DNA from: Pontibacillus marinus BH030004 = DSM 16465
GTDB lineage: Bacteria; Bacillota; Bacilli; Bacillales; BH030062
NCBI RefSeq assembly: GCF_000425225.1
Contig: NZ_AULJ01000001.1
Location: 62,001-126,000 of the forward strand
Length of the DNA: 64,000 bases
Reading direction: 5' to 3'
The notes under the pieces are model-generated. The model worked only from the letters and a program-made list of their open reading frames with translations, was not told the origin of the DNA and did no database searches. Shown in pieces: positions 7,343-54,795 of the stretch; position 1 is the first letter of the stretch; every line of letters starts with the position of its first letter. The translations under genes were made by a program, and so were the position numbers.

Positions 7343-7354
7343 GAGGAAAGATCA

Positions 7355-7957: not shown

Positions 7958-8012
7958 GGGGTAGGTCAGAAATAGTTTCATGGCAACTATATCATTTTGT
8001 AGGGAGGTAACC

Positions 8013-8732: not shown

Positions 8733-8756
8733 GAAAAGCGCGAGCGCCCGGTTAGC
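8733..8756. repeat. Fragment resembling a Bacillaceae GC-rich intergenic repeat
   Basis: AAAAGCGCGAGCGCCCGG followed by TTAGC, directly after the cysH stop. Its GC content is unlike the neighbouring sequence. It resembles the end of AAGCG..GCGCC-type repeats that I recall from Bacillus genomes. Only this fragment is present. Confidence 0.35.
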
Positions 8757-8809
8757 ATACTAGTGTGTAGAAGAACAGCACATTGAATATAAGAAGGGGG
8801 AGGAAACGA

Positions 8810-9577: not shown

Positions 9578-9607
9578 AAAGTGATGCGATAAAGGAGTGG
9601 CGTAGAG

Positions 9608-35824: not shown

Positions 35825-37498
35825 ATGAATGATGTGGAATATGCTTCTGGTAATCGAGAAGGACCTGTCACTGTTGCGAATTTAAAAGCATCCCATATTA
35901 TTTCTATTAATAAAGATGGAATGATTACGAGCTTGAATCCGAAAGCTGAGTCACTCTTTTACAATTATAATGGTTCAATAATAGGCAAGTCCTTTTTGAC
36001 CTTTGTTCATCAAGAAGATCGTGATCTTACAAGACAAACCTTTGAAGAGATGATTCATACACAAGAGGTCCGTCATTTTCATATCAGGATGGATGGTCAA
36101 GAAGACACGTTGTACACCATCAAAGCGATTACCATTATTAACAACGGTTTAGAAAAAGAGATCCTACTTATCATTTGTGATCATAGACAGACGGTGATCA
36201 ATAGAGGCAAATCCTATGTTAATCAAACAATGGATTTGTATGATAAAGAAGATTTGCTCAATGATGTAGAATTACTCATTCAACGCCAGGACCCATTTAC
36301 ATTAGTAAGCTTAAAGGTTGATCATTTAAAGAAATTGATGGGGATGTTTGGAAAAGAAGCTGAATTATTTATATTCCAAAGTATCCTTCAACGTATTAAT
36401 CAATTTTATAGTTCAAAAGTTAACCTTTATCGAATGAATAATGATGAAGTTGCACTGGTACTGAGCAAAGAGTTAACACCCGCACTTCAAGATGAACTTA
36501 AGGAATTACTCATACATGTCAACCTACCAATCAATTATAAGCTACATGAGATGAAAGTAAATATAAGAATGGGAATCGTACGATATCCTGAGGACGCTGA
36601 CAGTGCATTCACATTATTTCACCATAGTGATATGGCTTTAGAAATGAGCGACCGTTTAAATAAGCCATGTTATGTCTTTGAGAAGAATGATGAATCACGC
36701 TTTTTAAAAGAAATTCGTTTGGAAAGAGAAGTGTTTAAGTCTGTTACAGAAGAACAATTTATTCTACATTATCAACCCATTGTGAATCAAAATCAGAATA
36801 GAATAGTAGGTTTTGAGGCACTATTACGTTGGGACCACCCTGAGTTCGGAATGATTCCGCCTAATGAATTTATCCCTTTACTTGAAAGTACGGGTTTAAT
36901 TGTTCAAGTTGGATATCAAACTATTAAAAAAGCATGTCAACAAATAAAGACCTGGGAGCAAAATGGTTTTAACGATATCAAAATGCATGTGAATTTATCT
37001 GTTAGACAACTATTTTCAGAGGAATTAGTCTTGCAACTTGAGAACATTCTTGCAAAGGAAAAGATAAATCCAAAACGTTTAACGATTGAAATAACAGAGA
37101 GTATGATTATGGAGGATAGCGATCACTTCATCAACATGCTTGATGAAATTCGAAAGTTAGGGATTGAAGTGAGTATAGATGATTTTGGGACAGGTTATAG
37201 TGCTTTAAGCTATTTAACTAGACTTAACGTTGACAGTATCAAAATTGATCAATCTTTTGTACAACAAGTTGGTTGTGGAGATAAAGGAGATGCTGTGATC
37301 AAATCCATCATTTCATTAGCTCGTCATTTGGATTTAAACGTTATAGCAGAAGGGGTGGAAGAAGAAAGACATATCTCATTCTTGTTAGAGAATGAATGCA
37401 GTGAAATGCAAGGTTTTTACTTCAGTAAACCTTTAACAGAGTATGAGGCAAATCAATATTTGTTTACCTATCATCAAAAAGTGTCAGGCAATCATTAG
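35825..37498 (+). CDS. c-di-GMP phosphodiesterase (PAS-degenerate GGDEF-EAL)
   Basis: 557 residues, cytoplasmic. PAS at about 20-120, a GGDEF-like domain at 130-285 whose signature is RMNNDEVALVL (no GGDEF, so no cyclase activity expected), and an EAL domain at 300-550 with all catalytic landmarks: GFEALLRW, MHVNLSVRQL, IEITESM, DDFGTGYSALSYL, SIKIDQSF and AEGVEEERH. It should therefore degrade c-di-GMP to pGpG; the dead GGDEF part may bind GTP as a regulator. First gene of an operon with the cyclase at 37525 (26 bases on). Confidence 0.93.
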   Translation: MNDVEYASGNREGPVTVANLKASHIISINKDGMITSLNPKAESLFYNYNGSIIGKSFLTFVHQEDRDLTRQTFEEMIHTQEVRHFHIRMDGQEDTLYTIKAITIINNGLEKEILLIICDHRQTVINRGKSYVNQTMDLYDKEDLLNDVELLIQRQDPFTLVSLKVDHLKKLMGMFGKEAELFIFQSILQRINQFYSSKVNLYRMNNDEVALVLSKELTPALQDELKELLIHVNLPINYKLHEMKVNIRMGIVRYPEDADSAFTLFHHSDMALEMSDRLNKPCYVFEKNDESRFLKEIRLEREVFKSVTEEQFILHYQPIVNQNQNRIVGFEALLRWDHPEFGMIPPNEFIPLLESTGLIVQVGYQTIKKACQQIKTWEQNGFNDIKMHVNLSVRQLFSEELVLQLENILAKEKINPKRLTIEITESMIMEDSDHFINMLDEIRKLGIEVSIDDFGTGYSALSYLTRLNVDSIKIDQSFVQQVGCGDKGDAVIKSIISLARHLDLNVIAEGVEEERHISFLLENECSEMQGFYFSKPLTEYEANQYLFTYHQKVSGNH

Positions 37499-37524
37499 AA
37501 ATCACCTAAGAAGAGGGAATGACC

Positions 37525-39612
37525 ATGAACAAATTGTTAGACTTATTTCAGATGTTGATTCATGACCAAAATGAGCCAATGTCTAAATATTTATTGACTC
37601 ATTTATTAGATGGAACTTCTGATTTAATATTTCTGATGGAAATCAACGATGACTCTTATCAGTATGCTTTTATGAATAATGCTGCCAAAAACCATCTCCA
37701 GATTGACTGTAAATGGTTAGGTAAAACATTGGAAGATGTTCTCCCGGAGAATCATTGTCAGCAAATTAAAGAAAAATACAATGAAGCTAAGGAAACAAAA
37801 AAATCGGTTGCCTATGAGGACCAAGCAGAATTGAAAGGTAGCATTTTCTTTGGGCATAATATCTTATCACCTTTATTAAATGACGAGGGTGAATGTACTC
37901 ATATTCTATCAATCACCCGAGACATCACAGACCGAAAGTTAAAGGAGCAAGAATTAACAAGAATAAATGAACTTTATAGCTCTTTAATGACGAACTCAGC
38001 TGATGCAATTTTAATCTTGTCAAATGAGTTAAAAATTGTAGAAGTAAACCCAGCATTTGAGGAGATATATGGTTGGAGTAAATCAGAATTACAAGATAGA
38101 CATCTTCCTTTTATACCAAATAATAAAGAAGAGGATGCAAAAGCCCTTTTGAAACAAGTATTAAATGGTGATAAAATAAGCGGCTATGAAACACAAAGGT
38201 TGAAAAAAGATGGAGTTTTAGTTGATGTATCCATTTCTATGTCTCCGCTTTATAATGCCAATCAAGAAGTAGTAGGTGTTAGCTCCTTAATAAGAAACAT
38301 TACTGAACAGAAAAGAATCGAAAACAAGCTTGAAAAAAGCAAATCACGCTATGAATCCTTATTCAAGTATAACCCGGATCCCGTATTACAGATGGATTTA
38401 CATGGAGTGATTCAAAAGGCGAATCCTAGCTGTGAGCGGATCTTAGGACTATCTGTGAAAGAATTACGGAATACATCAATTCTCGAACTTGTTACAGATC
38501 AAGAGATCGAACATGTTCGACACCAGTTACAAATGTTAAAACAACAGGAAAGCACCATATTTGAAATAAAGTTGCATTGTAATCAATATCAAGGTCATGT
38601 TAGAACGTTTGATGTTGTAACATTTCCCATCGTATTAAATCAAGAGCTTCATGGAGCCTACTTTATCATGCAAGACAAGACAGAGAAGGTAGAGGTTTTT
38701 GATGCGTTACAAAAAAGCGAGGAAAAATATAGGCTTATTGCTGATCATTCCTTTGACTTAATAACATTCCATGATACCAAAGGATATATCACGTATGCTT
38801 CACCATCTCACTGCTATCTAGTTGATGAAGATCCTACAGAAATTCAAAATCAACCATTAACATTTCAAGTCCATGAAGAAGATCAAAAGAGTTTAAAAAA
38901 AAGTTTTTTTGAATCTTTAATGACTCTCGAATCCTTTTCTATCAAATTAAGAAAGAAAAATTCACGGAATGAATGGGTTTGGCATGAGTCAAAAGGGACA
39001 CCTGTAGAAGGAGAAGATGGAAGAGTTAGTCATGTTGTTATAGTGTCTAGAGACATTTCCGAGCAAATGAACTATGAAGACCAATTGAAAGAGATTGCTT
39101 ATTTTGATCATTTAACCAATTTACCAAACCGTCGCTTATTTGAAGATCGATTAAACCAAATGTTAGCACACAGTAATAGGAGTAATAGATCCTTTGCATT
39201 AATGTATCTTGATGGTGATGAATTTAAGGAAATAAATGATGATTTGGGACATGATATTGGAGATGAATACTTATATTTTGTAGGAAAGAGAATAAAGAAG
39301 TGGATGCGTGAGGAGGACACTGTAGCAAGAATCGGCGGTGATGAGTTTGCCGTTATATTGCCAAATATAGAGACAAGAGAAGAAGCTGAACGTGTGGCTA
39401 AAAGGTTACAACACTCTTTGTCGCAACCCTATAATATTAAAGGGGCAACGATTCAGTCATCATTTAGTATAGGAATTTCACTATTCCCTGAAGATGGACA
39501 GACAAAGGAACAAGTCATTCAACACGCTGATAAGGCTCTGTATTATTCAAAAGAAAAAGGGAAAAATGAAATAAGTACTTACCAAGATATTTTGTCACAC
39601 ATTCAAATCTAA
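37525..39612 (+). CDS. Diguanylate cyclase with several PAS domains
   Basis: 695 residues from ATG 37525 (AGAGGG at suitable spacing; the ATG six bases earlier is too close). About four PAS domains occupy 15-500 (TSDLIFLMEINDDSYQY; NSADAILILSNELKIVEVN; YNPDPVLQMDLHGVIQKA; DHSFDLITFHDTKGYITYAS). The GGDEF domain is at 520-690 with intact ARIGGDEFAVIL and, five residues before it, REED, which fits the RxxD inhibitory I-site. It makes c-di-GMP from GTP with product feedback. It is paired with a phosphodiesterase in one operon. Confidence 0.94.
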   Translation: MNKLLDLFQMLIHDQNEPMSKYLLTHLLDGTSDLIFLMEINDDSYQYAFMNNAAKNHLQIDCKWLGKTLEDVLPENHCQQIKEKYNEAKETKKSVAYEDQAELKGSIFFGHNILSPLLNDEGECTHILSITRDITDRKLKEQELTRINELYSSLMTNSADAILILSNELKIVEVNPAFEEIYGWSKSELQDRHLPFIPNNKEEDAKALLKQVLNGDKISGYETQRLKKDGVLVDVSISMSPLYNANQEVVGVSSLIRNITEQKRIENKLEKSKSRYESLFKYNPDPVLQMDLHGVIQKANPSCERILGLSVKELRNTSILELVTDQEIEHVRHQLQMLKQQESTIFEIKLHCNQYQGHVRTFDVVTFPIVLNQELHGAYFIMQDKTEKVEVFDALQKSEEKYRLIADHSFDLITFHDTKGYITYASPSHCYLVDEDPTEIQNQPLTFQVHEEDQKSLKKSFFESLMTLESFSIKLRKKNSRNEWVWHESKGTPVEGEDGRVSHVVIVSRDISEQMNYEDQLKEIAYFDHLTNLPNRRLFEDRLNQMLAHSNRSNRSFALMYLDGDEFKEINDDLGHDIGDEYLYFVGKRIKKWMREEDTVARIGGDEFAVILPNIETREEAERVAKRLQHSLSQPYNIKGATIQSSFSIGISLFPEDGQTKEQVIQHADKALYYSKEKGKNEISTYQDILSHIQI

Positions 39613-40261: not shown

Positions 40262-42319
40262 TTGAAAAGTGAAATATTAAAATCTGTATTAGCCGCTTAC
40301 CATTCCTATTTAATGGTACCGGTAACGTTATTAAATCATAAAAGTGAAATCGTAAGCACAAGCTCAAGAGCTTATGCATCGGACTGTCAGTTAACTTTGA
40401 AAAATGCGCTTGAGGCTTACTCCATAATAGATTCCGTTGCTGCTGTACAAATGCCTTACTCAGTCCCAAAGAACACACAATACCTTGTTACCTATGGGGG
40501 ATATTATGACGACCAGAAATGTTATGTTCTAGCTGGTCCTTTTTATGTTTCTTCCCCTAAAACGTGTGAAAATGATATTTCTAGTTTAACTGTTAATCAG
40601 GTAAAGCAATCGTATCAAACGATTGCTGAACTAGGAGATGTAATTCAGAGACTAAACAATGATAAAAGTGGATCACTATTTTCTTATTTATCCATGCTCG
40701 ATTTATTTTATGAAATTGACCAATCTCAAACCGTAATTGATGATAATCGACTTCACCAACATCTTACATCGTACTTGCCCAATATAACATTTAGCGGTAT
40801 AGCCGTTAAAACAAATGGCGCCCATACCTACAAGGTAACGAAATTTTTTGCAAATGATCAGGTAGATTTGTGTGAATATACATTTAATCTTGGAGAAGGT
40901 TTTTTAGGTCAATCTGTTGTTACTATGCAACCAAATATGTGGGAGAATATCACTCATGATCTACGGACTATAAATTTACAAGCTTATGGTTTATATCCTA
41001 AGGCTTTGTATTGTTATCCATTAACTATAGAAAATGGAAATGTCGCTGTCCTATTTGGAGGGTCTACTACAAATCCACTTTTCTCTTCTGAAACGATGTT
41101 TATGTTGCGTCAAGTATTTCAATTTATTGAACGCAGTATAGCTTATCAACGTATTGATAAAAACTTGTCAGATGTTCACACTCGATTAAATGTAGTGAAT
41201 GAGATTTTTGCTGTCATTTCTAAGATTAAGGACAAAAGTCGAATCTTGTATGTTTTAACAGATGCTACGTTGACTTTAGTTAAAGGACGTTTTTCAGCTA
41301 TATTGACAAAACCAGAAACAGATGTTCAATCATTTGATATGGTATCAAGAGGATTACAATCTGATGAGGTTAATAAATATAAAGAAGACTTAATTAATCG
41401 GTATTTTCAAGAAGAAGATTCAGTGAAAAGCGATTCAAACTCCACTCTAAAACAAACAACATGGGGTGATTGGGTTTATGAAAGTCCTTTAACAAGCGGG
41501 AATAAAGTGCTTGGAGTTTTATGTGTGAATATCGCTAATAAAGATCATAATGGTAAGCATACTGAGTTTTTAGAAAGCATTTCACAAATTGGCGGAATTG
41601 CAATTGATTTAATTAATGTGGAACAATCTAAGAAGAATGCAGATGTGGTTATTGAATGCTTGTTTGGTGCAATTGAAGAATTTGAACCTAATCAATATGA
41701 GAAAATGAAAAAGATGTTAAGAGGTGTAAAAGACTTTTCGGAATATCTTCGGTTAAACCAGGAAGAGAAATTACAATGTCTTAAGGCTTGTAAACTATCA
41801 GCTTATTCTCTTTCCTTTTTAGAGAATAAAGGTTTTAATCAGTCTCTAATTCAAATAATCGGCCATTATAATGAGTTAACGAAGGATATGATACCGAGTA
41901 AGCCATCCCCACTTCCATCTCAAATCTTATTTGTTATTCATTATTATATATCAAATGGGGAAATACCGCTTTTTCATAAACACTTACATGAAGAGTTAAA
42001 AATAAAATTTTCAGCTTTCATTCTACAGGAAAATGAAGAAGACAGTGAAAAAATCACACAAGCCTTACCCCAGCAAAAAAATATCAGTGTTGAGTTTGAT
42101 GTTATTCAAGTGCAATTTAAGCTCTCTAAAAGAGAAATTGACGTGTTGGAATTGATTATACAAGGGATTAGTAACAAGGAAATTGCACAAACTTTATATA
42201 TAAGTGAACATACGGTTAAAAACCATTTAAGTAATATTTTTCGAAAACTATCGGTTAAGGATCGATCTCAAGCGATTGCCAAGTGTTATCATCTATCACT
42301 CAACCAAGATTCTGAATAA
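40262..42319 (+). CDS. Large LuxR-type transcriptional regulator with GAF-like sensor domains
   Basis: 685 residues from TTG 40262 (AGGTGAT upstream). The C-terminal 65 residues are a clear LuxR/GerE helix-turn-helix ([43 protein letters not shown]). Before it, residues about 1-130 form a sensor with YVLAGPFYV, and 150-290 and 305-460 look like two GAF domains ([29 protein letters not shown]). A helical region links to the HTH. No receiver domain, so it responds to a ligand. It lies directly upstream of the riboswitch operon and may be its activator. Confidence 0.88.
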
Positions 42320-42330
42320 GTTATAAGTGG

Positions 42331-42375
42331 ACCTAGATAATTAGTGCTATAAAAGTGCTGTTATCTAGGTTTTTT
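42331..42375 (+). terminator. Intrinsic terminator
   Basis: ACCTAGATAA (42331-42340) pairs perfectly with TTATCTAGGT (42361-42370), then TTTTT. It isolates the LuxR-type gene from the riboswitch operon. Confidence 0.85.
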
Positions 42376-42461
42376 GTGTTTTAATGACTTTCTCCATGAA
42401 GTATTTAAATGTATCTAAATGGTATAGAAAATCTACATCAAAAGGTAATTCTCATACTTAC

Positions 42462-42554
42462 GAAATCCCTTTCAATGACTTGAAAGGGGACAAATTAAAT
42501 AGACGAAAAGTACTATCACATATATTATAACTTTATAGACAAATTTAGACAATG
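42462..42554 (+). promoter_or_regulatory. Promoter-region element shared with the EAL operon (copy 2)
   Basis: Matches 35669-35762 over about 90 bases. Here the first block also forms a perfect 9-bp hairpin, CCCTTTCAA (42467-42475) with TTGAAAGGG (42480-42488). TAGAC occurs twice at 10-base spacing (42536 and 42546), one helical turn, as expected of a binding site for a direct-repeat regulator. It lies directly upstream of the riboswitch aptamer, so it should contain the promoter. Confidence 0.6.
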
Positions 42555-42557
42555 ATT

Positions 42558-42657
42558 TCTCCCTACGAAAATGGCAAACTCATTGAAAAATGGGGACGCA
42601 AAGCCTATGGGTCTAAGGTATTTAACTACGATAGCCAGGTTACCGAAAAGGGTGGAG
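42558..42657 (+). promoter_or_regulatory. Cyclic di-GMP-I (GEMM) riboswitch aptamer
   Basis: Matches the GEMM-I consensus in order: ATGGCAAAC (42571-42580), P2 stem CATT/AATG with GAAA tetraloop (42581-42592), the hallmark GGGACGCAAAGCC (42593-42605), a P3 arm with CTA...TAGCC, and GGTTACCG (42638-42645). Closing P1 pairs can form between CTCCCT (42559-42564) and AGGGTGGAG (42649-42657). The aptamer senses c-di-GMP and precedes a terminator and then folE, so it controls the whole pterin/partner-switch operon. Confidence 0.93.
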
Positions 42658-42716
42658 TATTGGGTTGGTATATTATACCAAACTAGATATCCACCATTAT
42701 ATATGGTGGATTTTTT
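42651..42716 (+). terminator. Riboswitch expression platform: terminator with competing antiterminator
   Basis: Terminator: ATCCACCAT (42689-42697), loop TATAT, ATGGTGGAT (42703-42711), then T6. Antiterminator: GGTGGA (42651-42656) can pair with TCCACC (42690-42695), bridging a small TTGGTA/TACCAA hairpin. The GGTGGA strand also takes part in aptamer P1, so ligand binding should free the terminator. This predicts an OFF switch: high c-di-GMP lowers expression. Confidence 0.8.
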
Positions 42717-42731
42717 ATAGGAGGCTTTATT

Positions 42732-43313
42732 ATGTCCATTCAATCCATGAAAGAAAAAGAAGGATTAGTAGAAAAGAATGTTCGATCCATATTGGAGGAA
42801 ATTGGAGAAGATCCTCAACGCGAAGGTTTACTGGATACACCTAAGCGAGTAGCAAAGATGTATAAAGAAGTTTTTGAAGGTGTAGGAGTCGATCCATCTG
42901 TTGCCTTAACGACAACATTTGAGTCGGAAGGTTATGACGGAATGGTTGTTGTGCGAGATATTGACTATTACACATTTTGTGAACATCACTTGATTCCGTT
43001 TTTCGGAAAAGCACATATTGGATATATGCCGGAAAATCGTATTGTTGGATTAAGTAAGTTTGCAAGGTTAGTTGAATTGACCGCAAAGCGTCCCCAGGTG
43101 CAGGAACGAATGACAGAACAGATTGCTTCAGCTATTCATGATGTTCTTAGTCCAAAAGGTGTCATCGTAACTGTGGAAGGTCAACATTTGTGCATGTGTG
43201 CTCGTGGAGTGAAAAAGCCTGGAACCTCTACAGTTACAACAGTGAAAAGAGGTTCATTTAAAGAGGATAAATCTCTGGTTCGTGAGTTTGAACGAAGTAT
43301 TGCTACTACATAA
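42732..43313 (+). CDS. folE: GTP cyclohydrolase I
   Basis: 193 residues, the usual length of type I enzymes. Converts GTP to 7,8-dihydroneopterin triphosphate, the entry to pterins. Seen: FCEHHLIPFFGKAHIGYMP (zinc and catalytic Cys/His, near 80-98), SKFARLVE, RPQVQERMT, and GQHLCMCARGVKKPGT with the second zinc Cys. ATG with TAGGAGG directly after the riboswitch terminator. A housekeeping folate copy is expected elsewhere; this one is tied to PTPS and reductase genes, so the product is probably not folate. Confidence 0.97.
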   Translation: MSIQSMKEKEGLVEKNVRSILEEIGEDPQREGLLDTPKRVAKMYKEVFEGVGVDPSVALTTTFESEGYDGMVVVRDIDYYTFCEHHLIPFFGKAHIGYMPENRIVGLSKFARLVELTAKRPQVQERMTEQIASAIHDVLSPKGVIVTVEGQHLCMCARGVKKPGTSTVTTVKRGSFKEDKSLVREFERSIATT

Positions 43314-43329
43314 TGAGGGGGAGATAGAA

Positions 43330-44151
43330 ATGCTTTATTTGTCACGTAGAGTTGATTTTTCATCCATGCACAGCTATCGGAATCCTAAGTGGAGCGATGA
43401 ACGAAATCAAGAGGTTTTTGGCTTGTGCAGTAACCCAAGTGGTCATGGTCATGATTATCAGTTAGAGGTCATGGTTAAGGGAGCGTTAAACGAAGCGTCT
43501 GGTGTAGTTGTAAACACAGTGGACATCAAGAAAATAGTGGGTGGATTCGTGGATCAGGAACTAGACGGGAAGTTCCTAAACAAAGAACATCCCCATTTTA
43601 TGACAAAAATCCCGACAACAGAAAACTTGGTCACATACTTATGGGACGCAATATCCCCGAAGTTACAAAATTGTGAGTTACATAGGTTGCGACTACATGA
43701 AAATCCCTTTTTATATGCAGAGAAGGAGGAAGAAAAGATGGTTCGTTTAACAAGAAAGTATCACTTCAGTGCTGCTCATCGATTACACAGTGATCAGTTA
43801 TCAGACGAAGAAAATATTCGACTTTTTGGGAAGTGTAATAACCCTTATGGACATGGTCATAATTACTACCTTGAGGTTACAGTTGAGGGAATACCAGACC
43901 CTGTTACAGGGATGATTACTGATTTATCTTACTTAGATGAAATAGTAGATTCGGTTGTGTTAAACAAATTTGATCATAAACACTTAAACCTAGATACCAG
44001 TGAGTTTGAGGGACTAAACCCAACTTCTGAAGTAGCTGCCAAAGTTATGTATGATATGCTTTCTCCTTATTTACCCAACCTATATAAAATTGGCCTATGG
44101 GAAACAGAAAAGAACTACTTTGAATACATGGGTCCAGGAGTGAGTGCTTAA
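43330..44151 (+). CDS. Tandem 6-pyruvoyl-tetrahydropterin synthase (PTPS/QueD-like) fusion
   Basis: 273 residues from ATG 43330 (GAGGGGGAG upstream). Two PTPS domains in one chain: 1-135 and 138-273. Both have the zinc His and catalytic Cys motifs (GLCSNPSGHGHDY; GKCNNPYGHGHNY). The C-terminal domain also keeps FDHKHLN and LWETEKN. In the N-terminal domain the first of these reads LDGKFLN, so the catalytic Asp-His pair is lost. The protein would turn FolE product into 6-pyruvoyl-tetrahydropterin in domain two, with domain one perhaps structural. Normal PTPS is 120-150 residues. It starts 16 bases after folE. Confidence 0.92.
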   Translation: MLYLSRRVDFSSMHSYRNPKWSDERNQEVFGLCSNPSGHGHDYQLEVMVKGALNEASGVVVNTVDIKKIVGGFVDQELDGKFLNKEHPHFMTKIPTTENLVTYLWDAISPKLQNCELHRLRLHENPFLYAEKEEEKMVRLTRKYHFSAAHRLHSDQLSDEENIRLFGKCNNPYGHGHNYYLEVTVEGIPDPVTGMITDLSYLDEIVDSVVLNKFDHKHLNLDTSEFEGLNPTSEVAAKVMYDMLSPYLPNLYKIGLWETEKNYFEYMGPGVSA

Positions 44152-44861
44152 TGGTCTACTCCCAATTGAAAGAAAAAGTTGTGGTCATAATAGGGGCCAG
44201 TAGAGGGATTGGTAGAGCAACGGCTGAATTATTGGATCAACATGAAGCAAATCTTGTTCTTGGGGCAAGAGATATAACGGAATTAGGTCAACAATTTACA
44301 AGAAAAGAAGTCTATCCGCTTGAAATCGATGTGCGAGATGAGGAATCGGTTAAACATTTTGTTGACCAGTCTGTTAAACGGTTTGGGCGTATAGATGTTC
44401 TTATTAATGCAGCAGGTGTAGGAACGTTTTCAAGTGTCATAGATTCAGATACAACAGACTTTGATGATATGCTCACGGTTAACCTTCGTGGGACGTATCT
44501 TTCATGCAAATATTTCGGAAAACAAATGAAACAACAACAAGATGGACAAATTTTAAATCTTGTTTCGATTGCAGGTAATACGGCATTAGCAGGTGGTGGC
44601 GGATATTCTGCATCGAAGTTTGGTGTATTAGGGTTAACGAAAGTGCTCCAAGCAGAGTTACGTACAGAAGGTGTGCGAATTACCTCTGTATTGCCTGGAG
44701 CAGTTAATAGCTCTTTTTGGGATCATATTCACCCGAAACCAGATGTAGAAAACATGATTCCAGCTGAATCCATTGCAGAACATATAGCATTTTTATTATG
44801 TCAACCTAAACAGTCTGTAGTGGACGAAATTACAATAATGCCACCTGAAGGGATTTTATAG
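44151..44861 (+). CDS. Short-chain dehydrogenase, probable sepiapterin reductase-type
   Basis: 236 residues of the classical SDR family: cofactor motif IGASRGIGRA (near 15), LINAAGVG (near 85), catalytic Ser in LVSIAGN (near 135) and YSASKFG (near 150). Arg after the Gly-rich start suggests NADPH. Its ATG overlaps the PTPS stop (TAATG), a sign of translational coupling. Position after FolE and PTPS suggests reduction of 6-pyruvoyl-tetrahydropterin toward tetrahydrobiopterin or a similar pterin. SDR specificity cannot be read from sequence alone. Confidence 0.88.
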   Translation: MVYSQLKEKVVVIIGASRGIGRATAELLDQHEANLVLGARDITELGQQFTRKEVYPLEIDVRDEESVKHFVDQSVKRFGRIDVLINAAGVGTFSSVIDSDTTDFDDMLTVNLRGTYLSCKYFGKQMKQQQDGQILNLVSIAGNTALAGGGGYSASKFGVLGLTKVLQAELRTEGVRITSVLPGAVNSSFWDHIHPKPDVENMIPAESIAEHIAFLLCQPKQSVVDEITIMPPEGIL

Positions 44862-44878
44862 CAAAGGAGGGGTAGGCG

Positions 44879-45811
44879 TTGCCAAGTTTATTTAGGAAGG
44901 TTTTTCATCGAAATGAATCAAAAAAAACTGAATTAAACTTTCCTACTCTTCCAAATAAATGTAATCTTCTAACCTTAAAAAGAAAAGTCATTATAGGCAC
45001 TCTTGCTAGAGATCTAGCTTTTTGTTTATTTGAAAATCAAAAATCAGCGGATTCACTATTTTATTATTGCTTAACAAATGAAGAAATCGATGATGAGAAG
45101 AGGTTCATCCACTTAGCAACCAATCTAGTAGAGTGGGTTGAATTAGGCGAAGACATAGAAGATCGAATCCATAAGGCTGTATTATCAACGGATGTTAAAG
45201 ATAGTTTATTAACTGTTTTTAATAAGCACAAAGCTGATTTGTATATCTTGTGTCAAAAGCAGGATCAAAAAACGAAATCACAAGATATATCAGAAGATGC
45301 CAATCAACATGACCAAAGCAAATGGAAAATTTATCGAGATGTTATTTATGCTGCTACACAAAAACAATTTAAATTAATAGAAGAACATGAAATAGAACAA
45401 TATAAAACTGGTGACATTCTATTAAAAGAGAATGTCGACAAGAGAGAAGATATTCCGAAGTGTCGTGATTTAGCAAAAGAAGTGTTGCAAGAAATAGGAA
45501 TCTCCTCAAGTTCTCTTATGAGCTGGCTTTTAGTAATATCAGAAGCTGTTACAAATATATTGAAGCATGCAGATCACGGTAAAGTTTCGATTTTCTATCA
45601 AACTGATTACACCCATGTCATCGTGGAAGATGTGGGGCCAGGTTTTGATTTGGAAAACTTACCGAATATGACATTGATGTCAGGGTACTCGACAAAAGAA
45701 TCGTTAGGACAAGGGTTTACATTAATGATGAAGATCGTTAAGCAAATGATGTTGCATACTTCTTCTAAGGGTTCAACGTTGATATTAGCTTTTGAGAACG
45801 ATGGAAGCTAA
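44879..45811 (+). CDS. Anti-sigma/RsbW-type HATPase with unknown N-terminal domain
   Basis: 310 residues from TTG 44879 (AAGGAGGGG upstream). The last 135 residues are a GHKL ATPase of the RsbW/RsbT type: N box SEAVTNILKHAD, G1 DVGPGFD, G2 SLGQGFTLMMKIV. Such proteins phosphorylate STAS proteins or bind a partner depending on nucleotide. Residues 1-160 are helical (ARDLAFCLFENQKSADSLFYYCLTNEE) and match nothing I know; KQFKLIEEHE leads into the ATPase. STAS and phosphatase genes lie in the same operon, completing a partner switch. Confidence 0.85.
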   Translation: MPSLFRKVFHRNESKKTELNFPTLPNKCNLLTLKRKVIIGTLARDLAFCLFENQKSADSLFYYCLTNEEIDDEKRFIHLATNLVEWVELGEDIEDRIHKAVLSTDVKDSLLTVFNKHKADLYILCQKQDQKTKSQDISEDANQHDQSKWKIYRDVIYAATQKQFKLIEEHEIEQYKTGDILLKENVDKREDIPKCRDLAKEVLQEIGISSSSLMSWLLVISEAVTNILKHADHGKVSIFYQTDYTHVIVEDVGPGFDLENLPNMTLMSGYSTKESLGQGFTLMMKIVKQMMLHTSSKGSTLILAFENDGS

Positions 45812-45845
45812 ATAGGAAGTTTTTAATGAAGGGGAGGGATTTGAA

Positions 45846-46943
45846 ATGAATCTATTACCAAAAGAGGAAGTCAAAACCATACGTAAAACTTTAAAAACGA
45901 CCTATTTGTTTGATGGCTTTTGGGATCGATGGGTGGCGCATGGGTTACATGAAGACTTCCCGAAACAAGACCGTAAGCCATTGACTTCTTTAGAAAACTG
46001 GATTGAATCATTAGAAAATGAAGCTATAAAACGAAAAGAGCAAGCTGAAACGAAGAAACAAACCAATCGCTTCAGAGAGGCTGAACAACTTTTACGACAA
46101 GCTTCACTCTATTATAACTTAATTTATTGGGTTTTTCCTCAGAACAATGAGTATAAACAAGATTGGTACAAAAGGTGCAAAGCTCTTATGAAAGCTGCAG
46201 ACGATTTGTCTTCTATTGAAACGAAATCGGTGGAGCTCATAATTGATGGCCATATTTGTTATGGTAGGACTCGCTATCCGAAAAACCCTAAAGGATGCAT
46301 CATTATTATCAATCCGATTGATTCTTCAAAAGAAGAACTCTATAAATATGAGATGTATTTTAATGAACAAAACTATATCACAGTAAGCTTTGATGGACCT
46401 GGACAAGGTGAAACATACCTGAACGGTTTAATAGGTACACGACAGCGGTGGGAAGCATTTGTTAATGCTGTCATTGACTATTCAGGGGAAAGCTTTCCAG
46501 ATCAGAAAATCTATTTATTTGGTACAAGCTTGGGAGCATCATGGGCACTTTATGGTAGTGCACATCCATTGGTTGAGAAAGTTTCTGCTGTTAGTCCTGG
46601 GGTTGAATTAGAGAATATGAATTTACCAAAGTATTTTATGGAGCGAATGGATTTTTGCCACATAATTAGTCCTGAAACTTCTTCTATTCCGTATTTTGAT
46701 CAAATAAATTATCGAGCTCCAGTGCTTTTATTTCATGGAGGAAAAGATCCGATGGTTCCCTATAAACAAATGGAGCTTTTATTCAAAAAAATTCCTTATG
46801 GTAAACAGTACGTGGAATACCCAGAAGAGTCACACTGTTGTAACCATAAAATTCAGGACCTATTAAAACTAACTGTTGATTGGTTTGAAGACAAACATCC
46901 ACCCCTAGTAAATGAAAGAGGAGATATTTATGTTGAAGCCTAA
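45846..46943 (+). CDS. Alpha/beta hydrolase (FrsA/DUF1100-like)
   Basis: 365 residues. A helical N-terminal part (1-130, FREAEQLLRQASLYYNLI) and an alpha/beta-hydrolase core with nucleophile elbow GTSLGAS (near 225), VSFDGPGQGETY (near 180), FHGGKDPMVPY (acid, near 298) and a late His in EESHCCNH (near 325). The long N-terminal extension is that of FrsA-like esterases and of 2,6-dihydropseudooxynicotine-type hydrolases. It could act on an acyl or C-C bond of a small molecule. Its role among pterin and signalling genes is unknown. It overlaps the receptor gene by 14 bases. Confidence 0.88.
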   Translation: MNLLPKEEVKTIRKTLKTTYLFDGFWDRWVAHGLHEDFPKQDRKPLTSLENWIESLENEAIKRKEQAETKKQTNRFREAEQLLRQASLYYNLIYWVFPQNNEYKQDWYKRCKALMKAADDLSSIETKSVELIIDGHICYGRTRYPKNPKGCIIIINPIDSSKEELYKYEMYFNEQNYITVSFDGPGQGETYLNGLIGTRQRWEAFVNAVIDYSGESFPDQKIYLFGTSLGASWALYGSAHPLVEKVSAVSPGVELENMNLPKYFMERMDFCHIISPETSSIPYFDQINYRAPVLLFHGGKDPMVPYKQMELLFKKIPYGKQYVEYPEESHCCNHKIQDLLKLTVDWFEDKHPPLVNERGDIYVEA

Positions 46944-48507
46944 AACACTTCGCCAGTCATTTTTAACCAAAATGCTATCGATCCTTTTGATTATCACGCT
47001 GCTATCAGGCGTGCTTCAACTCTATTATATAAATGTATATGCAAAAAAAGAAATTAAAAATCAGGCGTTGATGATAGCAGAAAATATAGATAAAAATATT
47101 GAACAAACTAAAATATCTGCTGATGCAATTGAACACCAAATTGATCTGAAACTTATTTCCATGTCTAAAAACATTACAGATAAACTAAAGGGTAAAACTA
47201 TTGATGAAATTTATAACGAAGATCTTGGGAAATTAAAAGATGAGTTTAATTTAGCCGGTATAACTCTTTTTAATAAAACAAAGGATGATATTGTTGGTGT
47301 AAAGTCCACGAACCCTAATGAAATAGGGTTTAGTATAAAGAAATATGGTTATTATGAAGCTGGTAAGAAGATATTCAATGGTGTTAAACCTGATATTGAA
47401 GGGGCAACGTATCTCTCTAAAAATGCCATTGTCCTACCTATTGCACCATCAGGTTCTCAAAATGAAGTTCCCACATTCTTTAAATATGCCTATTATCATG
47501 CCCCAGGAACTTCCTATGTCATTAACATTTATATAGAGGCCAATGAAGTTTATCAATATACGAAAGAAACGGGAACGGAAAAGCGAATCGATGATATTAA
47601 AGACAATACTCCAAATATAAAAGAGATTGCTGTTTTAAATCCTAAAGTATTTAAAGATCCTAGTTTAGAAAAACAATTGTATCCTCCATTGAAGAAGGTA
47701 GAATATGGAGAGTTTAACTATAAGACGGATGATGACATTGAATTTTTAAAGAAAACAGCAGGTAATCTTCAACGAAAAATGATAACGCAATCAATCAACA
47801 ATGAGAAAGTATTTAAAGTATTCTTACCCATTAATGAAGATTATGTCGTCTACACATCATTTGATTATCAAAAGTTAAGTGCCCCTTTATATCGACACTC
47901 TTATATCCTAATTGCAACAGGAATCATTTCTCTATTTGTATTATTCTTGGTAACTGCTAGATTTTTTAATCGAATCTATGAAAATATACAACGGATAAAG
48001 TCACAAATTAGGTTATTGGAATCTGGTAATTTAACTGCTGAAAGTAAAGTGACTGATAACAGTGAGCTACAGAAGCTTTCAGAAAGTGCAAATAGAATGG
48101 CGAACACTCTTGGGGCTGTTCTGAAGGAAACCAGAGAGCAGGCACAAAAAGTGCAACAAATGTCTATTATGTTGGAAGCAGAAGCATCAAAATCCGTTGA
48201 GAAAATGTTTAAGATGTCTACAAAGGAAACGGCTCGTTCACGCGAGCAATTAAACGATACACTAGACTTTTTGGATAAGTTAAAAGATTACCTAAATACT
48301 CTACCAGAAGAAGAAAAGAATGAGGAAATACTAGAGGATATTGAGAACATTAAGCAAGTGGCTAAAGGTCAGACGGCATCATCTACAGATTTTACACTCA
48401 CATTAGCGGACTTACTTAAATCGCTCCATTATGAGTCAAGTGAACTATCAGATATATCAAACCTTGTATTACAACATATGGCTAATTTTAAATTAGAACA
48501 AAAATAG
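46930..48507 (+). CDS. Membrane receptor with extracellular sensor and HAMP, no output domain
   Basis: 525 residues from ATG 46930 (AGAGGAG upstream). TM1 at about 15-36 (MLSILLIITLLSGVLQLYYI), a large outside domain of about 290 residues (Cache-like by size and position), TM2 at about 325-345 (ILIATGIISLFVLFLVTARFF), then HAMP and a long coiled coil ending at residue 525. There is no methyl-accepting, kinase, GGDEF or PP2C domain. Usually such receptors end in an RsbU-type phosphatase; here STAS and phosphatase are separate genes just downstream, suggesting a split signal chain. Confidence 0.85.
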   Translation: MLKPKTLRQSFLTKMLSILLIITLLSGVLQLYYINVYAKKEIKNQALMIAENIDKNIEQTKISADAIEHQIDLKLISMSKNITDKLKGKTIDEIYNEDLGKLKDEFNLAGITLFNKTKDDIVGVKSTNPNEIGFSIKKYGYYEAGKKIFNGVKPDIEGATYLSKNAIVLPIAPSGSQNEVPTFFKYAYYHAPGTSYVINIYIEANEVYQYTKETGTEKRIDDIKDNTPNIKEIAVLNPKVFKDPSLEKQLYPPLKKVEYGEFNYKTDDDIEFLKKTAGNLQRKMITQSINNEKVFKVFLPINEDYVVYTSFDYQKLSAPLYRHSYILIATGIISLFVLFLVTARFFNRIYENIQRIKSQIRLLESGNLTAESKVTDNSELQKLSESANRMANTLGAVLKETREQAQKVQQMSIMLEAEASKSVEKMFKMSTKETARSREQLNDTLDFLDKLKDYLNTLPEEEKNEEILEDIENIKQVAKGQTASSTDFTLTLADLLKSLHYESSELSDISNLVLQHMANFKLEQK

Positions 48508-48563
48508 AGTAGTCCTTAGTAGATAAGAAACAAAAATCGCGGCTTTAAATAGGAGGTGGCGAG

Positions 48564-48893
48564 ATGGGTGAAGATTTAATGGTAAGAAAATCAAAAGAAA
48601 GTAGAGATGAGTGTACATTAAAAATAAGTGGTTATCTAGATTATTCCTCAATGGAACCTTTTATACAGGGAGTACGTTCGATCGAAGAAGGAACGAAGAA
48701 AGTAACAATAAATTTTTCTGAATTAGAATTTATCGACTCCACTGGAATTGGTGCAATTATTAATCTTGCCCATAAAGCAAATGATAAGCAATTTGAGGTA
48801 GAGTTGGTTGGTATGAATCCAGAGGTTCGAGAGGTTTTTGATACCATTGGGGTTTTTGAAATTATGGCTTCCTTGCAAAAGGAGGGTATGTAG
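48564..48893 (+). CDS. STAS-domain anti-sigma factor antagonist
   Basis: 109 residues, one STAS domain: LKISGYLDYSSMEPFI, VTINFSELEFIDSTGIGAIINL with the phosphorylatable Ser in DSTG (near residue 55), and VFDTIGVFEIM. In partner switches the HATPase kinase phosphorylates this Ser and a PP2C phosphatase removes the phosphate. AGGAGGTG precedes the ATG. The phosphatase gene starts one base after its stop, so the two are tightly coupled. Confidence 0.93.
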   Translation: MGEDLMVRKSKESRDECTLKISGYLDYSSMEPFIQGVRSIEEGTKKVTINFSELEFIDSTGIGAIINLAHKANDKQFEVELVGMNPEVREVFDTIGVFEIMASLQKEGM

Positions 48894-48894
48894 A

Positions 48895-49722
48895 ATGTTT
48901 CGGAGAGAAATGTTATTTGAAACTAAAACTGATTACGCCAACAAAACATTAGAACGAGAAATTAAACTAGCTCGTAATATACAAATGGAACTCTTAAATG
49001 GATCACAACCAACGTTAGAGAAAGGGCAGGTAACTGGTTACTCTTTACCGGCACGTCTAATCGGTGGAGACTACTATGATTTTCATGTTCTACCAAATGG
49101 TAAACTTCGGATTATCATTGGAGATGTGATGGGTAAAGGGATTCCTGCGGCTATGCTTATGATATTAACACGAGGGGCGTTTCGCAGTGCTGCTGAAAGC
49201 ACCCAAGGACCATCTGAAACGTTAACGGCTATGAATAAAGCATTGTATTCAGACCTTCGAACATTGAATTCATTTGTTACCGTTTTATGTGCAGATTGGA
49301 ACCCGGAAACAAATGTTTTATCTTATGCGAGTGCAGGACATAACCTTCCTTTGGTTGTTAAATCAAACCAAGATATAGAAGAAGTGCCGAAAGTGAAAGG
49401 TGTAATGCTTGGGGGATTACCCCAAAATACGTATAAAGAAAATTTCGTTCAGTTATTAGATGAGCAACTTGTATTCTTTTATACAGATGGGATCACAGAG
49501 GCACAAAATTCAGATGGGGATATGTTTCAAACAGAACGTTTACGGAAGGTTCTTCAACAAAACTATGCAGAAGCAGTAGAAGATATAGAGAATTCAGTTA
49601 TAGAATCTCTTGATAATTTTACAGAAAATGTACAACAAAAAGATGATATTACGATGGTGTTATTAAAGGTTCATCAAGGTCAAACAAAAGTTTCAAGTTA
49701 TAATTCCCCGGTTTTAAATTAA
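48895..49722 (+). CDS. SpoIIE/RsbU-type PP2C serine phosphatase
   Basis: 275 residues from ATG 48895 (AAAGGAGGG upstream; a longer frame overlapping the STAS gene is unsupported). The N-terminal helix IKLARNIQMELL is the RsbU-type linker/switch helix. The PP2C domain follows with metal motifs GGDYYDFH, IGDVMGKGIPAAM, ASAGHNLPL, FYTDGITEAQN and DDITMVLLK. It should dephosphorylate the STAS protein(s) of this operon. No sensor domain is attached, so the receptor at 46930 may control it through a shared coiled coil. Confidence 0.94.
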   Translation: MFRREMLFETKTDYANKTLEREIKLARNIQMELLNGSQPTLEKGQVTGYSLPARLIGGDYYDFHVLPNGKLRIIIGDVMGKGIPAAMLMILTRGAFRSAAESTQGPSETLTAMNKALYSDLRTLNSFVTVLCADWNPETNVLSYASAGHNLPLVVKSNQDIEEVPKVKGVMLGGLPQNTYKENFVQLLDEQLVFFYTDGITEAQNSDGDMFQTERLRKVLQQNYAEAVEDIENSVIESLDNFTENVQQKDDITMVLLKVHQGQTKVSSYNSPVLN

Positions 49723-49742
49723 CTATAAAGGGGGGCATGAAG

Positions 49743-51827
49743 ATGCAAAGTATCGTCTCCAAGGGGAAAACGATTGAAGATGCTGTAAATGTAGGCTTAA
49801 ATTTATTAGAAGCTTCAAAAAAAGAAGTGAATATTGAAATTTTACAAAAAGAAAACAAAGGTTTTATGGGAGTTGGTAGAAAACAGGCTGTAGTAAAATT
49901 GTCTATTAATCGTCTGGAAGAAAACCAAACTCAACCAGAGAAATCAAGTTTTAAAGCTGAAATGGATTCATTTGAAGAATACATTGAAAATCTTTCCCCA
50001 TATTTAATAGAAAATCAAAAATTGAATATGAATGACTCGTACCCTAGCACAGATATGTCCCCGTCTAATTTAGAAGGGAAAGTATGGGTGAAGGATAATC
50101 AACTTTTCGTGAAAAATTCTCCATCACACTTTTCAACTATAACTTCTTGTAAAGGCGTTAAGCTTATTAAAAATGGTGAAGTTGTAAAGGAACATACCAC
50201 GATAATATCTGAGAAAGATCAATTTGAAATAGAGATAGAAAATCAACAACAAATCAAAGAAACAACATGGAATGTATCGATTGATTCAAGTGGATTAAGC
50301 GCTCGTCTTCATATTGAACCTGGTTGTATCATTAAGAGAAATGTACAAAATATGGAACCGTCAGAACATATTGAATTATGTGTTGAGGAAACGGTAGAAG
50401 TAAGAAATGAAATAGATTATGAAGAGATCATGAAAAAAATAAATGCCCTTCATGTAACTTATGGAATAAATCAAAGTGAAATCATAAAAGCAATGAATAC
50501 TCAAGAGCCTGGAGTCTTCGAGATTGCTAACGGGAAAAAAGCAGAATCAGGTAAAGACGGATGGATCGAATTAAAAATTGATGTAAATCCTAGAAATGGA
50601 CTCGTAGAAGATGAATCTGGAAACGTAGATTTTAGAGAGAGTCGTTCAATTCCAAAACTCGAAAAAGGACAAATTGTTGCAATTGTTCATCCTCCTCTCC
50701 CAGGCACACCAGGAGTTACTGTGACAAATGAACCTATACCAGCTAAACCAACATATCCAATTAAACTTAAATTGGGAAATGGGATGATTGAAGTGGATGA
50801 TAAACTAGTGGCTACAGAATCAGGCCGTCCTTTTGTTGAACGTAGAGGACAACTTGTCTCTGCTTCCATTATGCCAAAATATGTTCATGATGACCATGTG
50901 AATTTATCTTCAGGAAACATTCGCTTCCATGGCGATGTTGATATCTTAGGTGAAGTTGAAGAGAACATGCTAGTAGAAGCTAAAGGTGATATTTATGTGT
51001 ATGGTTCAGTTAATCAAGCTGAATTAAATACGACGAAGTCTATCGTTGTAAAAGGGAATATTGCTAGCTCTGACATAGCTGCAGGTAAGAACAACATGTT
51101 AATTGCTGAACTAGGACATATATTAGGGGTGTTACACGGTCAACTTGAAAAAATGATTGCGGTTATCAAACAGCTATCTCAGACATCAGCCTTTAAATCT
51201 AGTGATGTTTCTGTAAGTGGTCTACAACCCCTTATTCGTATTTTGCTAGAGAGGAGGTTTAAAGGATTCCTTTCTCTTGTAAATCAATATCAAACTGTGG
51301 TAAATAAAGGTGAAAAATATCTGGATAGTGAGGATTGGTCCTTTATTTCTGTATCTTTAACGCAAATATTCCAAACGTTATCAAATCAACTTATCACCAT
51401 TGAACGCTTAGAAAACCTATCGAAGAAAATGTTTGATTTACATGAATTAAGCCAAGAGCCTATCGAACCTGAATCTTATATTACCATATCTGATGCAACC
51501 AACAGTAATTTATATAGCAGTGGAAATATCAATATCATTGGAAATGGCTGTATCAACTCGAAAGTTCATTCTGGAGGAAAACTAAATGTTTTTGGTGTCG
51601 TTCGTGGCGGAGAAGTATATGGTAGATTAGGCGTTCGTATAGATGAGGTTGGGTCAGGCAGCGGTACAAAAACAATCGTATCTGTTCCAAGTGATCAGAA
51701 AATATATATTCATAAAGCCATGGAAGGGACCATTCTGAAGATCGGAAATGTGACCCGTACGTTAAATGCAGATCGAAAGCAAATTACAGGATACTTGAAT
51801 GATCAAAATCAAATCATATTAGAGTGA
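49743..51827 (+). CDS. Jag_N-DUF342 protein (FapA-like)
   Basis: 694 residues from ATG 49743 (AAAGGGGGG upstream; an ATG six bases earlier is also possible). Residues 1-60 match the Jag_N domain (GKTIEDAVNVGLNLLEASKKEVNIEIL; NKGFMGVGRKQAVVKL). Residues about 230-690 are DUF342/FapA: LKIDVNPRNG, GQIVAIVHPPLPGTPG, then repeated beta-helix-like turns (GNIRFHGDVDILGEV, GDIYVYGSVNQAELNTTKSIVVKGNI, GGKLNVFGVVRGGEVYG) broken by a helical insertion (470-590). FapA helps place or assemble the flagellum in Vibrio. Here it may be the output or scaffold of the partner switch. Confidence 0.85.
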   Translation: MQSIVSKGKTIEDAVNVGLNLLEASKKEVNIEILQKENKGFMGVGRKQAVVKLSINRLEENQTQPEKSSFKAEMDSFEEYIENLSPYLIENQKLNMNDSYPSTDMSPSNLEGKVWVKDNQLFVKNSPSHFSTITSCKGVKLIKNGEVVKEHTTIISEKDQFEIEIENQQQIKETTWNVSIDSSGLSARLHIEPGCIIKRNVQNMEPSEHIELCVEETVEVRNEIDYEEIMKKINALHVTYGINQSEIIKAMNTQEPGVFEIANGKKAESGKDGWIELKIDVNPRNGLVEDESGNVDFRESRSIPKLEKGQIVAIVHPPLPGTPGVTVTNEPIPAKPTYPIKLKLGNGMIEVDDKLVATESGRPFVERRGQLVSASIMPKYVHDDHVNLSSGNIRFHGDVDILGEVEENMLVEAKGDIYVYGSVNQAELNTTKSIVVKGNIASSDIAAGKNNMLIAELGHILGVLHGQLEKMIAVIKQLSQTSAFKSSDVSVSGLQPLIRILLERRFKGFLSLVNQYQTVVNKGEKYLDSEDWSFISVSLTQIFQTLSNQLITIERLENLSKKMFDLHELSQEPIEPESYITISDATNSNLYSSGNINIIGNGCINSKVHSGGKLNVFGVVRGGEVYGRLGVRIDEVGSGSGTKTIVSVPSDQKIYIHKAMEGTILKIGNVTRTLNADRKQITGYLNDQNQIILE

Positions 51828-51846
51828 CTAGATTAGGAGGAGAAGT

Positions 51847-52161
51847 GTGGTGCTGAAGTTTTCCATAAATGAAATGGACAGTAGAGGGGTAGTAAATCTA
51901 GTTGGGGACTTGGATATTGAAGCAACTGAAATGATTAATGATGATTTAATCCCTTGTTTACTAGAATTTCAAATAATTCAACTAAACTTTGAGCATGTTC
52001 CTTTTGTCGATTCCTCAGGGATGGGGCTTTTGCTTAACATTGTTAAACGCTTAAAAGAACAAAATATCGAAGTTACAATCTCTGATGTTAAGGAGGAAGT
52101 GTACGAAGTTTTTGATCTATTACAAATTCCTGAGATTGTAGGGGAGGAGACATTTGTATAA
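51847..52161 (+). CDS. STAS-domain protein (second of the operon)
   Basis: 104 residues. Single STAS domain: VNLVGDLDIEATEMI, IIQLNFEHVPFVDSSGMGLLLNI (phospho-acceptor Ser in DSSG, near 57), VYEVFDLLQIPEIV. Two GTG codons are in tandem (51847, 51850) after AGGAGGAG; either may be the start. Together with the STAS protein at 48564 it gives the HATPase kinase and PP2C phosphatase two possible substrates, so the switch may branch. Confidence 0.92.
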   Translation: MVLKFSINEMDSRGVVNLVGDLDIEATEMINDDLIPCLLEFQIIQLNFEHVPFVDSSGMGLLLNIVKRLKEQNIEVTISDVKEEVYEVFDLLQIPEIVGEETFV

Positions 52162-54449: not shown

Positions 54450-54795
54450 AAGACTTTTACGCCTCCTTAATGTTACCAACTACTATGAATAGGATTTTGC
54501 TAAGATAACCTACTAATGATAAAGAGAGTTTTATAGTAGGTGCTCACAAGTAAAGGTCATTTTGATTTCATCTATGTGTAAGAGAATTATAAAGTTCCTC
54601 AATATAATTATAAGGGATAAATTCTTATACTGTTTCATATATACTCCAAAAGTCTTTTTGGTGATACGAAATGTCAAAAAAATGATGCTAAAAGTACTGT
54701 GAATATTGTACTGAAAACATGTATATTTAAGTCAACTTAAATATTATACCAAGTGCACGTATCAATCTAAAGACCTAAAAGTGTCACCCTAAAAA

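Follow-up and report, generated by a model that had tools for sequence, protein, structure and literature searches.

A predicted c-di-GMP OFF switch precedes a probable pterin and signalling operon in Pontibacillus marinus and in many Bacillus relatives

The 64,000-nucleotide stretch of Pontibacillus marinus BH030004 = DSM 16465 analysed here (GCF_000425225.1, contig NZ_AULJ01000001.1, positions 62,001 to 126,000; hereafter the window) carries a single RNA family match over gathering score. This is a class I c-di-GMP (c-di-GMP-I, GEMM-I) riboswitch aptamer at 42563-42647 on the + strand, which matches RF01051 over the full model (1-87 of 87) with 78.8 bits against a gathering threshold of 35 and an E-value of 8.2e-14. 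The aptamer landmarks named in the first-pass annotation are present, and GGCAAA, GACGCAAAGC and GGTTACCG agree with the probable ligand-contact residues G20, A47 and C92 in Vc2 numbering, of which the G and the A were confirmed by script. Downstream of the aptamer lies an intrinsic terminator, a 9-bp stem at 42689-42711 with a 5-nt loop followed by a T tract to 42717, so that the interval of 42689-42716 first proposed is right to within a base. A pattern scan of 42310-42760 found two terminator-like sites, the two strands of this one stem, against 0.3 expected from shuffles, while no promoter stood out from chance. The leader folds with z = -2.62, and 1 of 200 shuffles folds at least as well. 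The folE ribosome-binding site, AGGAGG at 42719-42724, follows directly, with the ATG at 42732.

Ten genes on the + strand run from 42732 to 52161, with gaps of at most 71 bases and two overlaps. The first is folE, encoding GTP cyclohydrolase I (42732-43313; PF01227, 246 bits; TIGR00063 over cut-off), and it is followed by a tandem 6-pyruvoyl-tetrahydropterin synthase (PTPS; 43330-44151; PF01242 in two stretches) and a short-chain dehydrogenase/reductase (SDR; 44151-44861; PF00106) for which a sepiapterin-reductase-like role is inferred. Next come an anti-sigma-type HATPase with an RsbW/SpoIIAB-like domain (44879-45811; PF13581, NCBIfam hits below cut-off), whose first 180 or so residues match no Pfam family, an alpha/beta hydrolase (45846-46943; PF12146) and a predicted membrane sensor (46930-48507). 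The operon ends with a STAS-domain protein (48579-48893; PF01740, scanned from the upstream start 48564), a SpoIIE-type PP2C phosphatase (48895-49722; PF07228, 171 bits), a Jag_N-FapA (DUF342) protein (49737-51827; PF20250, PF03961, PF14804) and a second STAS-domain protein (51847-52161; PF01740). The operon is therefore not only one of pterin biosynthesis, as the first-pass annotation had it, since folE, PTPS and SDR are followed without a break by seven genes that are mostly of signalling type. Genes with GGDEF or EAL domains lie on both sides, with PAS-GGDEF-EAL at 35825-37498, PAS-GGDEF at 37519-39612, and PAS-GGDEF at 52722-54479 on the other strand, and a 685-aa LuxR-type regulator (40262-42319; GerE domain, weak GAF match) lies directly upstream of the riboswitch on the same strand. 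The genome as a whole has 11 GEMM-I RNAs in 4.28 Mb, all over cut-off; of the first downstream ORFs of the other ten, Pfam finds GGDEF, MCP, CheW, LRR/Ig-like (two), a pyridoxal-dependent decarboxylase and DUF192, and nothing in three.

The pairing possibilities of the leader suggest how it may switch. GGTGGA at 42651-42656 belongs to the predicted 3' strand (42644-42662) of an extended aptamer helix P1, whose 5' strand is at 42550-42567 (duplex -13.2 kcal/mol), and can instead pair with TCCACC at 42690-42695, the left arm of the terminator (duplex -13.2 kcal/mol, p 0.07 against shuffles for this leader alone). Before the right arm of the terminator is transcribed, the free fold uses this antiterminator (-37.9 kcal/mol) and lies 5.3 kcal/mol below the fold in which the pairing is forbidden and P1 forms (-32.6 kcal/mol), whereas the complete leader folds with P1 and terminator together (-47.3 kcal/mol). 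Forbidding a pairing can only raise a computed energy, so the sign of this difference is no evidence, and the argument rests on geometry and comparison: in the window, P1 and terminator are compatible, while P1 and antiterminator exclude each other. This is how the Cd1 c-di-GMP-I riboswitch of Clostridioides difficile, an OFF switch before flagellar genes, has been described (PMC9262584), with aptamer and terminator that coexist and compete with an antiterminator made from the aptamer-stabilising strand and the switching strand. The target here is a pterin and partner-switching operon rather than flagella.

Comparison among loci supports the alternative pairing more clearly than the single leader does. 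Across 40 aptamers in 36 leaders (see below), a terminator was found by script after 37, the scan having missed three (in loci L106, L111 and L150; L numbers denote sampled loci and G numbers sampled genomes). Because a shuffle test on one leader at a time proved too weak (p from 0 to 0.48 over 18 aptamers), partners were permuted between loci. Matched antiterminator duplexes average -12.9 kcal/mol against -11.2 (sd 0.41) for swapped partners, with 0 of 5000 permutations as low, and with one aptamer per locus (33 loci) the means are -12.8 and -11.1, again with 0 of 5000, although related leaders are not independent in this test. P1 itself shows no such covariation, with matched duplexes averaging -6.0 kcal/mol against -6.2 for swapped partners and 3791 of 5000 permutations as low, a result that slightly lowered our confidence in the OFF reading. 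Moreover, the terminator stem is in the minimum-energy fold of the complete leader in 26 of 37 cases and not in 11, and the overlap of P1 and antiterminator strands in 37 of 37 leaders is partly by design, since the antiterminator was sought only around the aptamer's 3' end.

The arrangement is conserved, although its carriers are patchily distributed. The tandem PTPS occurs in 1 of 9 genomes of the window's family, the others having a weak single-domain match or none, and in 22 of 397 genomes of the order at E 1e-10, 21 of them near full length. Of 17 operon loci in the latter sample, the window included, 14 have the aptamer upstream. In a collection of genome contigs the best 80 of 267 related stretches were kept, so that the sample leans to close relatives; of these we class 44 as operon loci (PTPS with a near SDR of at least 50% identity), 17 as GGDEF-EAL loci and 2 as GGDEF/PilZ loci, and 17 are outside Bacilli. 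GEMM-I lies upstream of the first operon gene in 32 of the 44, and without double counting (adding the window, G130, G034 and G312) in 36 of 48 operon loci, at 85 to 543 bases before the first aligned base of that gene. Of the 36 leaders, 22 were not used to build the search model (R1) with which they were found, and these rest on that model alone. By contrast, Rfam finds GEMM-I at 0 of 17 folE loci outside the operon (one preQ1 match; Fisher p 2.8e-8, not corrected for kinship), a control that covers 17 of 19 such matches over cut-off, 13 from genomes with the operon and 4 from genomes with the other arrangements; one of the 17 (L067) holds only 194 nt upstream. The target is unusual, as first noted, but not isolated, recurring in Bacillaceae, Paenibacillaceae, Sporolactobacillaceae and Anoxybacillaceae.

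The operon can nevertheless live without the switch, since 12 of the 48 loci have no GEMM-I upstream. Seven of these (L105, L114, L127, L131, L137, L144, L147) were checked by Rfam and two more (L118, L148) through the same genomes, while L119, L143 and L152 were checked only by model R1; L119, at a contig edge with only 228 nt upstream, cannot be judged, and in L118 a GEMM-I about 6.5 kb upstream, before other genes, was counted as a miss. Nor does every operon locus show every gene: of 44 stretches, some of which end early, plus-strand matches were found for folE in 40, PTPS 44, SDR 44, HATPase 43, hydrolase 43, sensor 40, first STAS 41, SpoIIE 41, FapA 39 and last STAS 37. In G130 (L047) and L104 folE is absent from the operon and the switch precedes PTPS itself, while in L116 the switch precedes folE and PTPS lies 6 kb further on. 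Three Domibacillus leaders carry two or three switches in series, reminiscent of the Bc3-5 triple-tandem c-di-GMP riboswitch of Bacillus thuringiensis (PMC4759541), whereas the window has a single switch. A further GEMM-I aptamer lies within about 300 bases beyond the last operon gene, apparently before the next gene, in L047 (16573-16661), L102 (17982-18066), L106 (20662-20748) and L151 (20499-20582). A tree of tandem PTPS, which included 10 of the 17 stretches from outside Bacilli, leaves the deep forks among arrangements open, and we claim no ancestral state; GEMM-bearing loci occur in both main groups of operon loci.

The first three genes resemble a biopterin-type trio. The second PTPS half is nearest in the PDB to rat and human PTPS, at about 1e-33 against 4e-8 for QueD entries, and keeps CNN-x2-GHGHNY, DHKH and ET, which include the probable functional Cys, His, Asp-His and Glu positions, in 23 of 23 aligned rows. 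The first half keeps GHGHDY-like residues in 22 of 23 rows but has DG in 21 of 23, and His in none, where the presumed catalytic Asp-His stands. However, the tandem PTPS also passes the cut-off of the QueD model TIGR03367 (114.7 against 89.25 bits), and although the PDB hits of the SDR include sepiapterin reductase (2bd0), six other SDR chains score higher and the 25 best of 222 NCBIfam matches include no sepiapterin reductase. In five Poribacteria and two Armatimonadota stretches, homologues of PTPS, folE and SDR stand together without matches to the signalling genes, which supports one pathway. An AMP-binding (acyl/aryl-adenylating) enzyme occurs in 33 of 44 operon stretches, in L045 between hydrolase and sensor (6576-8090, - strand), but not in the window, and the best matches in the window's whole genome are 31 and 28% identical. 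Together with the hydrolase this hints, by inference, at an acylated pterin, as in the pepteridine cluster of Photorhabdus (plu2792-plu2799; PMC5384830), which combines GTP cyclohydrolase I, PTPS and pteridine reductase with acyl-coupling enzymes; no NRPS/E2 fusion was seen here.

The membrane sensor gives no Pfam hit, and only weak sensor-kinase/MCP hits at residues 278-445, but appears to comprise an extracytoplasmic dCache-like domain, a TM, a HAMP-like linker and a coiled coil. An AlphaFold2 model from 39 sequences has pLDDT 84.3 and pTM 0.53. Foldseek returns first two integrative models of B. subtilis McpB and then dCache-type domains, among them the periplasmic domain of chlamydial RsbU (6mab) and the uric-acid receptor McpH (8bmv), at modest scores (1e-6 to 1e-4, TMt about 0.4). 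VIA-align mostly matches one subdomain (e.g., 4ywz, Z 12.7, rmsd 3.0, 133 aligned), with whole-domain rows such as 6w3o at Z 9.6, rmsd 7.5 and 218 aligned; its rows list no pterin-binding protein that we recognise, which is no evidence either way. The sensor is present in 21 of 21 genomes with a tandem PTPS and in 32 of 376 without (Fisher p 7e-21, not corrected for kinship), and in two of the 21 (G057, G103) it lies away from the tandem PTPS. It is therefore enriched but not exclusive, and a sensor specific for pterin is not supported as stated; in G060 the sensor domain (48% identical over 395 aa) is fused to a histidine kinase (L209, 6405-8666, - strand). The accompanying phosphatase recalls the SiaABCD threonine-phosphorylation module of Pseudomonas aeruginosa, in which a SpoIIE-type phosphatase and partner proteins appear to be tied to c-di-GMP. 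SiaA is its best NCBIfam hit, but at 51.6 bits against a cut-off of 700; moreover, the present operon contains no cyclase and carries extra FapA, hydrolase and pterin genes.

Interestingly, the same PTPS also meets c-di-GMP genes in two further arrangements. In 17 loci the tandem PTPS adjoins a membrane GGDEF-EAL protein of about 850 residues; Pfam, run on two (L056 and L062, the same genomes as L160 and L136), finds HAMP, GGDEF and EAL, and all 17 proteins keep GGDEF, EAL and DDFGTG motifs. An SDR match lies in 15 of the 17 stretches, in L141 far off. In two other loci (L133 and L159, also sampled as L061 and L063) the PTPS lies among GGDEF-EAL, hydrolase and SDR, with Pfam run on L061 adding a second GGDEF protein and a PilZ-like protein just under cut-off. 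None of these 19 has GEMM-I within 1 kb upstream of the cluster. The N-terminal part of the 17 GGDEF-EAL proteins is homologous to the operon's membrane sensor (E 6e-33 to 2e-19; one alignment, L155, covers the extracytoplasmic part alone), so relatives of one sensor meet the same PTPS with two outputs, a partner switch or a c-di-GMP enzyme.

We propose that the leader is a GEMM-I riboswitch that most likely works as a transcriptional OFF switch, as the first-pass annotation had predicted, and one of the Cd1 type, and we put the probability of this reading, with the operon function set out below, at roughly 80%. With little c-di-GMP, GGTGGA would pair with the left arm of the terminator, which could then not form, and RNA polymerase would read into folE; with c-di-GMP bound, P1 would be held, the left arm freed, the terminator formed and the operon turned off. 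Membership of the RNA family, the terminator, the covarying alternative pairing and conservation before the operon are observed, whereas ligand binding, P1 as the competing helix and the OFF direction in the cell are inferred. The operon probably makes a tetrahydropterin, from GTP to dihydroneopterin triphosphate by FolE, to 6-pyruvoyl-tetrahydropterin by the second PTPS half and then by carbonyl reduction by the SDR to biopterin or a close relative, together with the dCache-like sensor and a partner-switching set of SpoIIE phosphatase, two STAS proteins and HATPase kinase. The pterin product, and pterin as a signal in the c-di-GMP network, are likewise inferences.

Of the alternatives, the one that survives best, though less likely than not, is that the riboswitch belongs to the sensor/partner-switching module and that the pterin genes are later insertions between switch and module that share its regulation incidentally. 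Of six further sensor loci examined, three (L210, L211, L212) hold the sensor-STAS-SpoIIE-FapA-HATPase set without pterin genes, and in L211 a GEMM core motif (near 9833; motif only, without a covariance search) lies just upstream of the HATPase gene (7593-9713, - strand), which is fused there to an HD domain (HD_5). The 32 genomes with the sensor but no tandem PTPS point the same way. However, a pterin gene follows the switch in the 36 loci, and in the 17 further loci the same PTPS sits with a GGDEF-EAL protein instead of this module, so pterin genes meet c-di-GMP genes independently of it. It is unlikely, though a little less so given that P1 does not covary, that c-di-GMP turns the operon on. 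The cGAMP-sensing pilM switch, a close GEMM relative, is paired with Cd1 as the ON case (PMC9262584), but its aptamer and terminator are described as mutually exclusive, whereas in the window the strand that blocks the terminator lies in the predicted P1, and the covarying antiterminator strand starts at the aptamer's 3' end in the other leaders too.

A housekeeping role in supplying folate or queuosine precursors is also unlikely. In the window's genome and three others (G148, G270, G386) the operon folE is the only type I FolE, and the QueD model passes its cut-off, but those four genomes all have a type IB enzyme (GCHY-1), 12 of 16 sampled genomes with an operon folE have a second FolE, the 17 folE loci examined outside the operon lack GEMM-I, and a separate single-domain PTPS/QueD-like match exists in the window's genome and in seven of eight other genomes of the family. 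Supply of tetrahydrobiopterin as cofactor for aromatic amino-acid hydroxylase or nitric oxide synthase (NOS) is likewise unlikely and showed no clear correlation: the biopterin-dependent hydroxylase occurs in 3 of 21 tandem-PTPS genomes and 0 of 20 others, and is lacking in the window's genome and 17 more of the 21, while NOS, although present in the window's genome, is in 12 of 21 against 13 of 20 others, among these all 8 sampled relatives of the window's family that lack the tandem PTPS. Least likely is that the aptamer senses 3',3'-cGAMP, for although 6 of 40 aptamers of this set carry A at position 20 (L047 5721-5807, L099 9223-9312, L106 9130-9214, L122 9190-9293, L123 9198-9302 and L134 9206-9290), which in the GEMM-I family can shift specificity towards this ligand, and a crystal structure of G20A GEMM-I RNA with 3',3'-cGAMP has been cited (PMC6274999), the window aptamer and 32 others have G there (one row was not read by the script) and GGDEF/EAL genes flank the operon.

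GEMM RNAs are associated with many dozens of different genes (PMC7266159), so an odd single target would not have been remarkable, and it is the conservation that counts. The RNA class and its predicted scheme of action are known; what appears to be new is the conserved use of the switch before a biopterin-type and partner-switching operon, and the wider clustering of tandem PTPS with c-di-GMP genes in Bacilli, since we saw no paper naming folE, PTPS or biopterin as a GEMM target in the open literature searched, which excluded subscription papers and the supplements of the original GEMM studies (PMC7288161, on the GTP cyclohydrolase III fold, and PMC6311696, on ribBA, shared search words but proved irrelevant). 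A comparable system is the PruA-PruR-DcpA pathway of Agrobacterium tumefaciens, in which a reduced pterin lowers c-di-GMP, with periplasmic pterin-binding PruR acting on DcpA, and is linked to surface attachment (PMC13259868); here the link is a riboswitch plus gene clustering, with a dCache-like sensor. A term search of that review finds no riboswitch, Bacillus or PTPS, and it calls biopterin rare in bacteria.

We tentatively raise the possibility, which remains speculative, of a second, Gram-positive pterin/c-di-GMP signalling system. In this model the cell would make a biopterin-like molecule only when c-di-GMP is low, and the molecule, or an acylated form of it, would be read outside the membrane by the dCache-like sensor, whose output would be a partner switch in this operon and a GGDEF-EAL enzyme in the second arrangement. 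If the pterin acts in the same sense as in Agrobacterium, low c-di-GMP would allow pterin synthesis and pterin would keep c-di-GMP low, a self-sustaining state. This loop is hypothesis; the aptamer match and its conservation are not.

The known pterin control of c-di-GMP is a proteobacterial pathway whose active pterin is predicted rather than settled (PMC13259868). Here what looks like a complete biopterin-type gene trio is placed under a predicted c-di-GMP riboswitch, with a candidate receptor and output in the same operon, in genera such as Domibacillus, Robertmurraya, Oceanobacillus and Paenibacillus. This provides a candidate receptor domain that can be tested against pterins, and makes it possible to ask in laboratory Bacilli what bacterial biopterin is for and whether pterins and c-di-GMP regulate each other outside Proteobacteria.
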